NCBI GenBank assembly: GCA_021766785.1 | Contig: JAICBP010000080.1 | Coordinates: 52,076-116,075, forward strand | Length of the DNA stretch: 64,000 nt | Reading direction: 5' to 3' | Origin: Sulfurimonas sp. endosymbiont of Alviniconcha boucheti | GTDB taxonomy: Bacteria > Campylobacterota > Campylobacteria > Campylobacterales > Sulfurimonadaceae | Part shown: positions 35,446-40,595 of the stretch, in pieces | Layout of the letters: each line of letters begins with the position of its first letter | Position numbering within the stretch: the first letter of the stretch is position 1 | Program-made: the position numbers and the translations under genes | The notes under the pieces: generated by a model | Told to the model about the DNA's origin: nothing | The model's input: the letters and a program-made list of their open reading frames with translations, nothing else | The model's database searches: none

Positions 35446-35513
35446 TAAATTACACTATTGTAGCCTAAAGTAGCATAAACTTCTATATGAGAGATACTAT
35501 ATAATAAAAACTA

Positions 35514-36050
35514 CTAGTTAGAAGAGGAATTATTTATAATAGTTTCTTCTGCAGGAAAAACAGTAATATTTTCGCCATTTTTTGTTTTTTGCATAGAGTT
35601 TTTATTGACCTTTACTTTACGATTACCTACATATATTGGCACTGCAAAAGCTCTAAAGCCTATATCTTTTATACTTACTAGCAGTTTAATATAGTATAAT
35701 CCATCATTATCTGCCGAGACTTTCAAGTCTATAGGGTATTTTTCGTTTGAAGACTTTAATGGTATCAATAGTTCTTTTGAAACTGCTGTTATCTCATTGA
35801 GTCTTTTGTCAATATTTACTTGTACATGCATAATACCTGAAGACAGACTACTTGTAAGTACAATATGTACATCACTTATATCTCCAGTATTCGCATGTTC
35901 AGTCGTGTAAGTAATATCTACAGGGGCACCAGGTTTTGCATATCGACCAACAGTTGTCCCTTTTACAAGCTCTTTTTTTCCATAAAAGTTTACTGCCATT
36001 GCTGTTCCACCAAGAAGAGAGATAAGCAATAGTATCTGTGTATATTTCAT
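35514..36050 (-). CDS. Exported protein of unknown function next to the metalloprotease
   Basis: 178 residues from the ATG at 36050, which has AGGA six bases upstream; the longer TTG-start frame (to 36080) would hide the signal peptide. MKYTQILLLISLLGGTAMA is a cleavable signal with an AMA site. The rest is a beta-rich domain (VDITYTTEHANTGDISDVHIVLT, IMHVQVNID, GLYYIKLLVSIKD), perhaps Ig-like, ending in an Asn/Ser-rich tail. It follows the HEWGH lipoprotein gene by 37 bases on the same strand, so they probably form one operon. It could be a partner, inhibitor or chaperone; unknown. Confidence 0.65.
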   Translation of the reverse strand: MKYTQILLLISLLGGTAMAVNFYGKKELVKGTTVGRYAKPGAPVDITYTTEHANTGDISDVHIVLTSSLSSGIMHVQVNIDKRLNEITAVSKELLIPLKSSNEKYPIDLKVSADNDGLYYIKLLVSIKDIGFRAFAVPIYVGNRKVKVNKNSMQKTKNGENITVFPAEETIINNSSSN

Positions 36051-36087
36051 TATTAATCCTTTGTATAATACATTAACCAACCAAATA

Positions 36088-38847
36088 CTACCATAATGTA
36101 AAAGGGTTTATACTTATACTTATACTTATATCAAATTCTGCATCTGATATATTATTAGCATCCCATACTTCAAGTAGTACGGGGTGTGTTGCAGATGGCA
36201 AGGTCCATATTTGTGTTTCGTCACCAAGGTTTTCACTCGTTCCTCTTACAAGAGAATGAGGATCATCAGGAAGTTCAGGGTATAGAATAAAATTAGGATT
36301 ACTACCGTTTCCATTAGTCTGATGGATCTTGATTGTAGAAGCAAGTCCATTAGGAGCAACCACTTTATAATAAAGACGATTACCTAACTTATTATATTTG
36401 TCATTACTATTACTATAATTAAACTTTACATTGGATATAGTAGTACCTATACTCAGATCTTTATAAGGAAACTCACTGGCTCTGTTAGTTCTTCCATTTC
36501 CCCATATATCGCTAATCTTTGCAATATTTTCACTAGAGACAATAGCATCTATTTTATCTGCATTCTCACTATTTGCATCCTTCATCCCCTTAATAAAGGT
36601 AAAAATACTTGTAAAGGCATAGCTCTTTTTCTCTGCGTTAATCATCATCTGATGAATAGGAGTAAAACCTAAACTTAAGGTATCCGCACCATCATCATTA
36701 CTATCATAAAGATCATAAATTATATTTTGAACGGATGTTTCATTATACCAACCAGGATTAGAAGTAGTGCCAGATTCCATATCAATTTCAAATCCAAAAC
36801 CTTGCTCTGAACCAGAGGTATCAAAGTAGATAGGATCATCTAGTGCTATAGCTGAAAAAGCATTTCCCCACCCCTCACCAAAGGCTACACGAATATCTAA
36901 TAGATCATTACCAGAGTGGTCACCACCAATACTATCAGAACGAGAAAACTTATCTTCATAATAGTGTCCCCACTCATGAGCGATAACATGATTGTCATAC
37001 TCATCTGTATCACTCCCTGCATCTCCTAAAATATAGAGATTGCCAGAGGAGTAGTAAGATGTTCCTATCTGACCTGCATCAGTGCTACCTGATGCTGCAA
37101 CATTAGAGGGTGACCAATTTACCACCAAAGGAGGGAACACTATCTGAGCATCTGCACTTTGCACTTTTTTCATAGCACTTTTGATTGTATCTAGTATAGC
37201 AAATGGTGCAGCCACTCTTGGTTGCGTATAATCATCTCCTGTCCAACCAGATGGTGCATTTAGATTACGAATATTATTTGTTGAATCTATTGAAGCAAGT
37301 GTACCTTCCATAGCATATAATGCTTTATCATTTGTGTTATCAACTACTTCTACATCCCATCCTGGTTCACCAGTTTTAAGCATCTTAGCCAATACACGGA
37401 TTTTAATCGGTGTAGATAATGGAAGATCAGCTAATACATAAGTACCATTTTCATCTGTTGTTGTACTCTTGATAATGGTACCATTCTCTTCTACTGCCTC
37501 CACTACGACAAATTTTGCTTTTTCATGAGTAGTTTTATTATAATCAAGTCCTTGAGCAGAACTTTTATTTGGGACAAGGTCATATGTAATGGTACCTCTA
37601 ATTGTGGTAATACAAATTGTGACTGTTCGTGTAGCTGTAGCACTATTGCCTGCCTTGTCCGTGGCTGTGTATGTGATATTATAATCACCTGTGGTAGTAG
37701 TATCGACACTACCTGTAGTAGTAACGCTCACATTCCCATCAACTGCATCTATTGCTGTAGCTCCTGCATCGATGTAAGTGCTATTATATTTTACAGATAA
37801 AGTACGTTTCCCTACAATAGTAATATGAGGTGCAGTACCATCTCTAACAAGGACTCTTCGTATAGCTGTAGCACTATTACCTGCACTATCCGTGGCTGTG
37901 TATGTAATATTATAATCCCCTATGGTAGTAGTATCGACATTACCTGTAGTAGTTACATTCAAATCCCCATCAATTGTATCTGTGGCTATAGCTCCCTCAT
38001 CATCGTAAGTGCTATTATATTCTACCTGTTGAGGATTATCCCCTATAATGGTAATTTGAGGTGTAGTACTATCTATAACTGAGACTGTTCGTCTAGCTAT
38101 GGCAATATTGCCTGCACTATCTTCAGCTACATATGTAATATTATAATCCCCTAATTTATTAGTATTGACCCTATCTAAGTCTAAGGTAATTATTGTTACA
38201 TTTTTATCTATTGCATCTACTGCTGTAGCACCTGCATCGATATAGGTAGTGTTATATTCTACAGATATACTACTTCCTCCATTGATGGTGATAAGAGGTT
38301 TTTTAGCGTCTATAACTGAAACTTTTCGTATAGCTGTGGCACTATTTCCTGCACTATCCGTAGCTCTATATGTAATATTGTAGTCCCCTAAAGTCTTAGT
38401 ATCGACATTACCTATACTAGTAACATCCACATCCCCATCAACTTTGTCTATTGCTGTAGCTCCTTCATCGATGTAAGTGCTATTATGTTCTACATCTAAA
38501 ATACGTTTCCCTAAAATCTTAATATAAGGTGGAGTAGTATCTATGACTGAGACCGTTCGTATAGCTGTGGCACTATTGCCTGCACTATCCGTAGCTATAT
38601 ATGTAATATTATAGTCCCCTAAAGTCTTAGTATCGACCTTATCCATGCTAGTAACATGCGCATTCCCATCAACTGTAGCTCCTGCATCCCGGTAAGAACT
38701 ACCATATTCTACCAACAAATTACTCTCCCCTATAATGGTAATTTGAGGTGGAGTAGTGTCTAAAATTATTGGTTTATCTGTTTTTTTATCTTTATTATTA
38801 CAGGCGGTAAATAAGATAAGACTAATAATTACTATACACATTCGCAT
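36088..38847 (-). CDS. Secreted lipoprotein metalloprotease with five Ig-like repeats
   Basis: 919 residues. A lipobox LFTAC gives Cys16. Residues ~28-410 hold five ~76-residue repeats of the DUF5011/HYR type, each with a VEYxSxYxDxGA core and ending in GDYNITYxATDxAGNSATAxRxVxV (variable). A carboxypeptidase-regulatory-like domain follows (~412-495). The catalytic region has HEWGH (624-628), then Glu658 in GEGWGN, a plausible third zinc ligand. The C-terminal ~110 residues look like a beta domain. The substrate is unknown. The family is not one I can name with certainty. It faces DUF2202 divergently. Confidence 0.75.
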   Translation of the reverse strand: MRMCIVIISLILFTACNNKDKKTDKPIILDTTPPQITIIGESNLLVEYGSSYRDAGATVDGNAHVTSMDKVDTKTLGDYNITYIATDSAGNSATAIRTVSVIDTTPPYIKILGKRILDVEHNSTYIDEGATAIDKVDGDVDVTSIGNVDTKTLGDYNITYRATDSAGNSATAIRKVSVIDAKKPLITINGGSSISVEYNTTYIDAGATAVDAIDKNVTIITLDLDRVNTNKLGDYNITYVAEDSAGNIAIARRTVSVIDSTTPQITIIGDNPQQVEYNSTYDDEGAIATDTIDGDLNVTTTGNVDTTTIGDYNITYTATDSAGNSATAIRRVLVRDGTAPHITIVGKRTLSVKYNSTYIDAGATAIDAVDGNVSVTTTGSVDTTTTGDYNITYTATDKAGNSATATRTVTICITTIRGTITYDLVPNKSSAQGLDYNKTTHEKAKFVVVEAVEENGTIIKSTTTDENGTYVLADLPLSTPIKIRVLAKMLKTGEPGWDVEVVDNTNDKALYAMEGTLASIDSTNNIRNLNAPSGWTGDDYTQPRVAAPFAILDTIKSAMKKVQSADAQIVFPPLVVNWSPSNVAASGSTDAGQIGTSYYSSGNLYILGDAGSDTDEYDNHVIAHEWGHYYEDKFSRSDSIGGDHSGNDLLDIRVAFGEGWGNAFSAIALDDPIYFDTSGSEQGFGFEIDMESGTTSNPGWYNETSVQNIIYDLYDSNDDGADTLSLGFTPIHQMMINAEKKSYAFTSIFTFIKGMKDANSENADKIDAIVSSENIAKISDIWGNGRTNRASEFPYKDLSIGTTISNVKFNYSNSNDKYNKLGNRLYYKVVAPNGLASTIKIHQTNGNGSNPNFILYPELPDDPHSLVRGTSENLGDETQIWTLPSATHPVLLEVWDANNISDAEFDISISISINPFTLW
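37600..38790 (-). repeat. Five tandem ~230-base repeats encoding Ig-like domains
   Basis: The DNA repeats at about 76-codon spacing, with near-identical stretches such as TTATAATCACC/TAATCCCC and GTAGCACTATT[A/G]CCTGC. Copies differ in detail, so they are diverged rather than fresh duplications. Such arrays can shrink or grow by recombination and change the stalk length. Confidence 0.75.
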
Positions 38848-39046
38848 AATCTGTTTTCCCTCTTTTATTTAAGAACATAAACTAACTTAGAGATTCTTTT
38901 CTAAAAAATATAATAAAAGTTCATTTTATCTATTTACCAATTAAGATTTCATTAATTACCAAAGATATACTATTAAAGTGACATATACTTCAATTTATTT
39001 ACTATCTATTCAAACTCATATTGCTAACAATCTGCTAATTATTTTA

Positions 39047-39055
39047 TGGTATAAT
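39047..39055 (+). promoter_or_regulatory. Extended -10 promoter of the DUF2202 lipoprotein gene
   Basis: TGGTATAAT is an extended -10 with a perfect TATAAT at 39050-39055. The start of transcription is expected near 39062, about 25 bases before the ATG; AGGAG lies at 39073-39077. No -35 fits at 17 bases. Confidence 0.7.
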
Positions 39056-39086
39056 TGCACAAATCAAAAATAAAAGGAGTTTCCAA

Positions 39087-40253
39087 ATGAGAAACACAAA
39101 AATAATTTTATCAACAGTAGTAACAGGAGTGTTGCTTGTCGGATGTAATATAGATAATTTAACTCAAAATGTAGATGATTCCAATTCTACTAATAACCAC
39201 AACTCTATTATGAGTATGAAATTTAACTTAGATGATTATAACATAACCACAGATCTTGTACAGGAGATGAAAGATTCTCTAACATATATGAAGGATGAAG
39301 AGAGACTAGCTTCAGATCTCTATCTAAATCTTTATAATTACTATAAAAATTATAGTGATCTTGAGATAAAACAGCTTAATAATATCGCTACAAATACAGA
39401 GAACGACCAGATTTCTATTATCAAATCTCTTGTAAAGAGATATGATTTAAATAGCTCTGAACCTCAAGATGTCAATATATCAAGAGGAGTATATGAGAAT
39501 CAAGTCATCCAAGATCTCTATGACAAATTTTATGCTATTGGTCAAAATTCTCAAGAGGAAGCACTTAAAGTTGGGTGTATGGTTGAAGTAACAGATATTA
39601 ATGATTTAGATAAATATATTTCACTCGCAAAAGAGTCAAATGCTACAGATATTGAAACTGCATTTAAAGTTCTAAGAGATGGAAGCTACCATAATTACTG
39701 GACATTTGATCAAACACTCAAAAACTTAGGTGTAGCAGATGGATGCTATGATGAAGAGAATGAACTTTTAACTAATAAAGAGGAAGCTTACCCTAAGAAT
39801 AATGCTAATGCCAAAAAATATATGCAAAATAATAATGGCAACTCAGAGCATACACAAAGTCATAATGATAACGTAGAGCATACACAAGATCATAATGATA
39901 AGAAAAAGTATGGACAAAATAATAATAGCAACTCAGAGCATACACAAAGTCATAATGATAACGTAGAGCATACACAAGATCATAATGATAAGAAAAAGTA
40001 TGGACAAAATAATAATGACAACTCAGAGCATACACAAAGTCATAATGATAACGTAGAGCATACACAAAGTCATAATGATAACGTAGAGCATACACAAAAT
40101 AATAATGACAACTCAGAGCATACACAAAGTCATAATGATAACGTAGAGCATACACAAAATAATAATGACAACTCAGAGCATACACAAGATCATAATGATA
40201 AGAAAAAGTATGGACAAAATCATAATGGCAAAAAGGTACAGCGCAAAGTTTAA
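39087..40253 (+). CDS. DUF2202-type ferritin-like lipoprotein with His/Asn-rich tandem-repeat tail
   Basis: 388 residues. A lipobox in TGVLLVGCN gives Cys20. Residues ~60-230 follow the DUF2202 pattern (YMKDEERLASDLYLNLY, NIATNTENDQISIIKSLVKRYDL, ALKVGCMVEVTDINDLDKYI, DGSYHNYWTFDQTL). The second-helix position that is His in typical SEQxHM reads Gln, so diiron binding is uncertain. From residue ~254 the tail is built of EHTQSHNDNV, EHTQNNNDNS and EHTQDHND-KKKYGQNNNxNS units, with over ten His. It is strongly biased compared with the rest of the window. Metal binding is likely but unproven. Confidence 0.8.
   Translation: MRNTKIILSTVVTGVLLVGCNIDNLTQNVDDSNSTNNHNSIMSMKFNLDDYNITTDLVQEMKDSLTYMKDEERLASDLYLNLYNYYKNYSDLEIKQLNNIATNTENDQISIIKSLVKRYDLNSSEPQDVNISRGVYENQVIQDLYDKFYAIGQNSQEEALKVGCMVEVTDINDLDKYISLAKESNATDIETAFKVLRDGSYHNYWTFDQTLKNLGVADGCYDEENELLTNKEEAYPKNNANAKKYMQNNNGNSEHTQSHNDNVEHTQDHNDKKKYGQNNNSNSEHTQSHNDNVEHTQDHNDKKKYGQNNNDNSEHTQSHNDNVEHTQSHNDNVEHTQNNNDNSEHTQSHNDNVEHTQNNNDNSEHTQDHNDKKKYGQNHNGKKVQRKV
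39846..40239 (+). repeat. In-gene tandem repeats (30- and 60-base units)
   Basis: Units begin GAGCATACACAA and are 30 bases, or 60 with the AAGAAAAAGTATGGACAA extension. All lengths are multiples of three, so copy changes alter tail length without a frameshift. Copies are nearly identical, indicating recent expansion. Confidence 0.95.
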
Positions 40254-40280
40254 TTAATATACAACAAAGTTCCCACTTAT

Positions 40281-40300
40281 TACACCTCTCATGAGGTGTA
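40281..40300 (+). terminator. Terminator hairpin, copy 1
   Basis: TACACCTC-TCAT-GAGGTGTA, a perfect eight-base-pair stem, 27 bases after the DUF2202 stop. Its natural T-rich tail was replaced by the duplicated repeat DNA, so this copy may terminate poorly. Confidence 0.65.
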
Positions 40301-40301
40301 G

Positions 40302-40496
40302 CATACACAAAGTCATAATGATAACTTAGAGCATACACAAAATAATAATGACAACTCAGAGCATACACAAAGTCATAATGATAACGTAGAGCATACACAA
40401 AATAATAATGACAACTCAGAGCATACACAAAGTCATAATGATAAGAAAAAGTATGGACAAAATCATAATGGCAAAAAGGTACAGAGCAAAGTTTAA
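40302..40496 (+). pseudogene. Orphan copy of the repeat tail (no start, no head)
   Basis: 64 codons plus stop in the same frame as the upstream gene, encoding HTQSHNDNL, three EHTQ units and KKKYGQNHNGKK, VQSKV. Two stops (TAA 40251-40253 and TAG 40299-40301) separate it from the gene, and no start codon with a binding site is visible. It is the leftover of the tail duplication. With the terminators, it fills the 342-base gap before serA. Confidence 0.85.
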
Positions 40497-40524
40497 TTAA
40501 TATACAACAAAGTTCCCACTTCAT

Positions 40525-40544
40525 TACACCTCTCTTGAGGTGTA
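40525..40544 (+). terminator. Terminator hairpin, copy 2
   Basis: TACACCTC-TCTT-GAGGTGTA, same stem as copy 1 with one loop change, followed by TCATTTTAT. This is probably the original and functional terminator of the DUF2202 gene, and it may also face serA transcription from the other side. Confidence 0.75.
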
Positions 40545-40595
40545 TCATTTTATAGTTAATTTATTATTATGAGAGTATGAATAAAAAAGAGAGGT

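Follow-up and report, generated by a model that had tools for sequence, protein, structure and literature searches.

Does a lipoprotein bearing a HEWGH motif work alone, or does the small exported protein encoded directly behind it belong to the same system? This question is raised by two adjacent genes in a 64,000-nucleotide stretch of DNA (hereafter the window) from Sulfurimonas sp. endosymbiont of Alviniconcha boucheti (assembly GCA_021766785.1, contig JAICBP010000080.1). A preliminary description, made from the DNA letters and their open reading frames, had proposed that the two form an envelope system comprising an Ig-repeat lipoprotease and a partner. Our literature search on the motif and on similar gene pairs found no description of this two-gene system. 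The analysis presented here suggests that the genes probably constitute one dedicated, undescribed two-part protease system, in which the partner probably controls the enzyme.

Organization of the Locus

The protease and partner genes share a strand and are separated by 37 bp, with the partner second (Table 1). An AAAGGA Shine-Dalgarno-like site precedes the partner ATG, and a longer, TTG-started form extending to 36080 is an alternative. The features read earlier from the sequence were recovered upon closer analysis, namely a lipoprotein with five Ig-like repeats, a regulatory-like domain, HEWGH with a Glu 30 residues on, and a signal-peptide protein 37 bases behind on the same strand.

Table 1. 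Features of the protease-partner locus, in window coordinates. E-values here and in the text are not alike across tools.
Feature	Position	Strand	Basis
Surface lipoprotease gene (putative)	36088-38847	-	ORF, 919 aa, ATG start; homologues in 79 genome-collection loci
Lipoprotein signal peptide and lipobox Cys, residues 1-16	38800-38847	-	Sequence ..LILFTAC16; relatives
Five Ig-like stalk repeats, about residues 33-412	37612-38751	-	PF16403 Bact_surface_Ig-like, five stretches, E=6.6e-83
CarboxypepD_reg-like beta domain, about residues 415-514	37306-37605	-	PF13620 E=3e-4, below cut-off here
Predicted gluzincin catalytic core, about residues 535-789	36481-37245	-	AF2 pTM 0.93 (residues 415-919); Foldseek M4 E=4.5e-8
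HEWGH, candidate zinc-binding/catalytic motif, residues 624-628	36964-36978	-	H, E, H invariant in 85/85
Glu658 in GEGWGN, candidate third zinc ligand, 30 residues past second His	36874-36876	-	Invariant in 85/85
PPC/collagen-binding-like C-terminal beta-sandwich, about residues 790-911	36115-36480	-	Foldseek ColG CBD 3B, TM (target) 0.80
Small exported partner gene	35514-36050	-	ORF, 178 aa, ATG; homologue directly 3' of protease in 70/74 assessable loci
Partner signal peptide, about residues 1-19	35994-36050	-	Sequence; helix 3-22 in model
Partner Ig-like core with KPGA..Y entry motif, residues 39-142	35625-35936	-	AF2 pLDDT about 97 in core; conservation profile
Conserved partner C-terminal tail GE.I....A.E.I, residues 159-171	35538-35576	-	Conservation profile, 74 partners

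Conservation of the Gene Pair

Three clades were sampled for both genes, each sample being a draw from a larger group. Within Campylobacterota, the protease was found in 8 of 397 genomes, and a separate search with the partner profile returned the identical eight, with the partner directly downstream in all. One alphaproteobacterial order holds the partner in 23 of 220 genomes and the protease in the same 23, adjacent and on one strand; in the Variovorax family, the 12 partner genomes (of 251) all fall among the 13 protease genomes. Over the 868 genomes, the partner was therefore present in 43, always beside the protease, and the protease in 44. This co-occurrence within three clades rules out chance neighbours and upholds the proposal of a two-gene system, as 8/8, 23/23 and 12/13 protease genomes hold an adjacent partner on the same strand. 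A partner without a protease, which if widespread would by the preliminary description's own criterion have refuted the proposal, was not found among the 868 genomes, all 43 partner genomes having the protease.

The lone partnerless protease among the 44 genomes, from the Variovorax family, has a diverged sequence. An exported-looking ORF (L172, 1566-2297, reverse strand) overlaps the end of the diverged protease; searched in a small set with the partner profile, it scores only 0.0017, at most a hint that it could be a partner.

A scan of a genome collection with the protease alignment yielded 79 loci, the hosts of which comprise Campylobacterota, Alpha-, Beta- and Gammaproteobacteria, Nitrospirota, Thermodesulfobacteriota, Planctomycetota and one Bacteriovorax-labelled bin; the pair is spread across at least five phyla (about six in the scan). 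With a partner profile built from the first nine pairs alone, the partner was detected directly downstream in 70 of the 79 loci, or 70 of 74 assessable ones, since five of the nine partnerless contigs run out 350 bp or less past the end of the protease gene. The flank is complete in the other four (L015, L018, L035 and L050), with no partner beside the protease; in three of these genomes a partner sits beside another protease copy, the fourth being a 1.2 Mb bin. Spacing across the 72 protease-partner gaps measured varies between -77 and +67 bp, and the partner comes second in every case. Long partner-holding ORFs at L011 and L076 were considered as gene fusions and rejected, as they lie in a different frame from the protease.

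A comparison of neighbours revealed no third gene common to loci across clades; the system is thus taken to be two genes, and a larger operon was rejected. In some Campylobacterota only, an outer-membrane-like exported ORF (EINFGKGDFQ / EFDYGTGTFS / GININKYDLEMEG) adjoins the pair (L003 3498-4412, L006 1-525, L035 2590-3201); it was spotted by eye and is not general.

Copy numbers vary. Four loci (L023, L025, L031 and L029) carry two tandem diverged proteases, which fall in separate tree clades, and one downstream partner. At another (L004 116-1312, genome G277), a single protease precedes two or more partner paralogues in tandem, one a likely lipoprotein, with three partner matches in the genome. 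Given that tandem proteases often share a partner and that three partner matches occur in G277, the two genes do not keep to a constant 1:1 ratio. Protein distances of the pair members correlate (r = 0.77, 71 pairs), a value also expected from shared descent alone and thus no proof of contact. The partner evolves much faster, with a mean identity of 21% vs 41% for the protease.

Genomic Context and Likely Acquisition

When 99 relatives were searched, the window's own genome alone proved to contain both genes; the pair is thus rare within the genus. In stretches fetched from three congeners (L161, L162 and L164), serA and orf113-coaX-hisG-methyltransferase flank an interval of differing cargo, named by sequence reading as a 665-aa DUF255-like protein, a diguanylate cyclase with a DUF255-like protein, and an RND efflux set. 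In the window, the slot between serA and orf113-coaX-hisG (35450-40590) contains the pair and a DUF2202 lipoprotein. Across the genus, this slot receives variable insertions, among which the pair is rare. The lipoprotein, a divergent neighbour on the forward strand (39087-40253; DUF2202 domain, E=7.6e-23), has a C-terminal tail of tandem repeats rich in His/Asn/Gln (NSEHTQSHNDNVEHTQ...).

In the protease tree, the window sequence falls within a Campylobacterota clade, where its neighbour is a Sulfurovum sequence with 63% identity (support 100/99). The remaining carriers in the phylum sample all belong to another family than the window organism; the window pair was therefore likely acquired by transfer. 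As to the vehicle, a tblastn search of a phage collection returned no matches, and phage cargo was rejected; just two plasmid records matched. For a protease on a Burkholderia ambifaria plasmid (L012, 32% identical), no partner could be detected in the vicinity.

The Predicted Protease

In the window protease, a lipobox follows the signal peptide, as in surface lipoproteins. Cys16 is nearly invariant among 69 full-length proteases, a simple lipobox pattern occurs in 68 of 79 full-length relatives, and a CGGGGG start is frequent among the protease lipoproteins; judging from these sequences, a lipid anchor appears to be a general feature of the family. The stalk is another matter. The preliminary description had given weight to the long stalk as a feature of the system, a view that did not hold: PF16403 repeats occur in just 2 of 69 full-length proteases, and the stalks of other members range from no domain, as in many, to several unrelated Ig, PKD, Big_9 or cadherin-like domains. 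The run of five repeats, seen in the window member alone, appears to be a local decoration, and the variable stalk was thus excluded from the definition of the system.

The beta domain that follows matches CarboxypepD_reg in 68 of 85 relatives at E <= 0.01. The weak NCBIfam match seen most often, in 51 of 85 members, is to NikL, a subunit of an ECF transporter; in our view it reflects the same regulatory-like domain being picked up. The C-terminal sandwich is matched by PF04151 in four relatives.

Between these domains lies the putative catalytic core. In domain numbering (to which 414 is added for the full protein), H210, E211, H214 and E244 are unchanged in 85 of 85 sequences; D199, E202, D204, G227, G285 and N405 are also unvarying. 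AlphaFold2 modelled residues 415-919 with a pLDDT of 91.8, and the model places HExxH within helix 205-220 and the distal Glu within the following helix 238-255. Motif and model together give the gluzincin arrangement, so that the structure prediction does not refute the protease proposed from HEWGH. His624, His628 and Glu658 are the predicted zinc ligands, with Glu625 as the predicted base. A Foldseek search ranked M4 peptidases first (Gentlyase, ProA, vibriolysin and LasB; 4ger, E=4.5e-8, TM (target) 0.53) and M36 lower (7qfy, E=4.3e-4). The model thus indicates an M4/M36 catalytic-domain fold, which denotes a similar fold and not family membership.

Indeed, sequence profiles place the protein outside both families. 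Pfam M4 (PF01447) gives the window protease 14.8 bits against a cut-off of 22.4 (E=0.04), and no M4 family appears among the Pfam matches of the 85 relatives at E<=0.01. For M36, NF038111 gives 15.9 bits against a cut-off of 1700, with no Pfam M36 match; weak NCBIfam M36 matches occur in 13 of 85 relatives (best 7.4e-6), the likeness lying around GEGW. FTP and PepSY propeptides are absent from the Pfam matches of the window protease, and FTP, PepSY, M4 and M36 are all missing from the 25 commonest Pfam matches of the 69 full-length proteases (E<=0.001). No solved chain in the PDB sequence profiles matches the protease profile. The best explanation is a new gluzincin family of surface lipoproteases, presumably active and displayed on the outer face.

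The Partner Protein

The AlphaFold2 model of the partner is an Ig-like sandwich (pLDDT 89). The 74 partners have in common this type of sandwich, a KPGA entry motif, a G-x-Y-Y stretch and the C-terminal GE.I....A.E.I; the stretch after the Ig core is conserved yet less ordered in the model. Some partners, including that of the window, have a plain signal peptide, and about half carry a lipobox by a simple pattern. Foldseek matches were diffuse, spanning Ig-like and macroglobulin-like domains; the fold thus tells little about function. Against Pfam, the 74 partners gave scattered weak matches only, with no known inhibitor family, emfourin included, and no solved chain matched below E=0.04. The earlier statement that no described family fits agrees with the absence of a Pfam or NCBIfam family for either protein; PHROGs and PDB sequence profiles likewise assigned none.

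Proposed Role of the Partner

The folding and silencing of M4 and M36 enzymes is normally the work of their own propeptide. As this propeptide is apparently missing here, the enzyme is membrane-anchored and the partner is near-constant, the simplest mechanism would be that the partner does the propeptide's job in trans. The first gene would encode a lipid-anchored gluzincin with a thermolysin/fungalysin-like fold on a variable Ig-like stalk, and the second a small co-exported Ig-fold protein that would bind the protease domain and control it in trans. The partner's likeliest task would be the role filled by FTP/PepSY in M4/M36 enzymes: it would help the protease fold and/or silence it during transit through the periplasm, until surface display, and the displayed protease would then cut external or envelope proteins.

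We place the probability that the partner controls the protease, as an inhibitor and/or folding helper taken together, at about 60%. Counting against control are the orphan protease copies (L015, L018 and L050) and partnerless L012, as well as the lack of a fixed 1:1 gene ratio; the fast evolution of the partner would also fit a substrate or adaptor role. A fuller reading, in which a new gluzincin family and a trans-acting Ig-fold folding or latency chaperone replacing the in-line propeptide travel as a transferable two-gene unit in at least five phyla, is tentative and somewhat less than an even bet.

Alternatively, though this seems unlikely, the partner could be a delivery or docking factor that escorts the lipoprotease to the outer membrane or holds it there, leaving catalysis untouched. 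Export of both proteins and the nearly universal lipoprotein character of the protease, often with the CGGGGG start, would suit such a role, and the partner's KPGA motif and tail could serve as docking sites; however, no further export or outer-membrane gene is common to the loci, and generic lipoprotein carriers would render a dedicated factor superfluous. A role as the protease's main substrate, in which cleavage would release the partner as a signalling or structural protein, is more doubtful still. The conserved, less ordered stretch after the Ig core is compatible with this role, and a precedent has been published for Listeria, where Mtz is proposed to cut Tim (PMC8235301), but a sole substrate would need to be lost and gained together with its enzyme everywhere, and nothing in the conserved tail points to a variable, exposed site of cleavage. 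Least probable is a contact-dependent antibacterial weapon, in which the protease hits neighbours and the partner shields the producer: the patchy distribution, the insertion between conserved genes, the order of enzyme gene then small exported gene and a similar suggestion for protealysin-emfourin (PMC9505478) recall such systems, but the protease is anchored, no toxin-delivery domain is among its Pfam matches, and the partner is single-copy at most loci, without extra immunity genes.

Control by the partner stays the preferred reading. Two families that lack both a name and an assigned function can now be treated as one conserved unit in Campylobacterota, Pseudomonadota, Nitrospirota, Planctomycetota and Thermodesulfobacteriota, and both hypothetical proteins gain a joint annotation. 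The pair offers a test case for how cells prevent a lipid-anchored surface protease from doing damage during export, and laboratory work is feasible because some members occur in Variovorax and Cellvibrio.

Comparison With Known Systems

The window protease resembles M4 (thermolysin) and M36 (fungalysin) enzymes in combining HExxH and a Glu carried by the following helix, and in its predicted fold. Unlike them, its family falls below every family cut-off, is lipid-anchored, has no visible FTP/PepSY and is accompanied by a near-obligate small partner. Thermolysin has an Asp four residues after the third ligand, whereas Asn is commonest at this position in the window family (78 of 85). The likeness to clostridial collagenase is confined to the C-terminal beta-sandwich, which resembles the PPC/collagen-binding domain ColG CBD 3B at a sequence identity of 11%.

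Among gene pairs, Listeria Mtz-Tim likewise combines an exported metalloprotease with an adjacent small exported inhibitor-like lipoprotein, proposed to be cut by Mtz (PMC8235301); in contrast to the window pair, Mtz is a metzincin, Tim is TIMP-like, and the pair is of phage origin and Gram-positive. In the protealysin operon, the second gene encodes emfourin, a 1:1 active-site inhibitor of the thermolysin-type protease (PMC9505478). Both systems join a thermolysin-fold protease and a small protein in one operon, with binding known there and proposed here; however, protealysin is intracellular and a true M4 enzyme, whereas both window proteins are exported and the partner has no Pfam family. 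By analogy, the window pair may work like emfourin and protealysin, to which it is unrelated by sequence.
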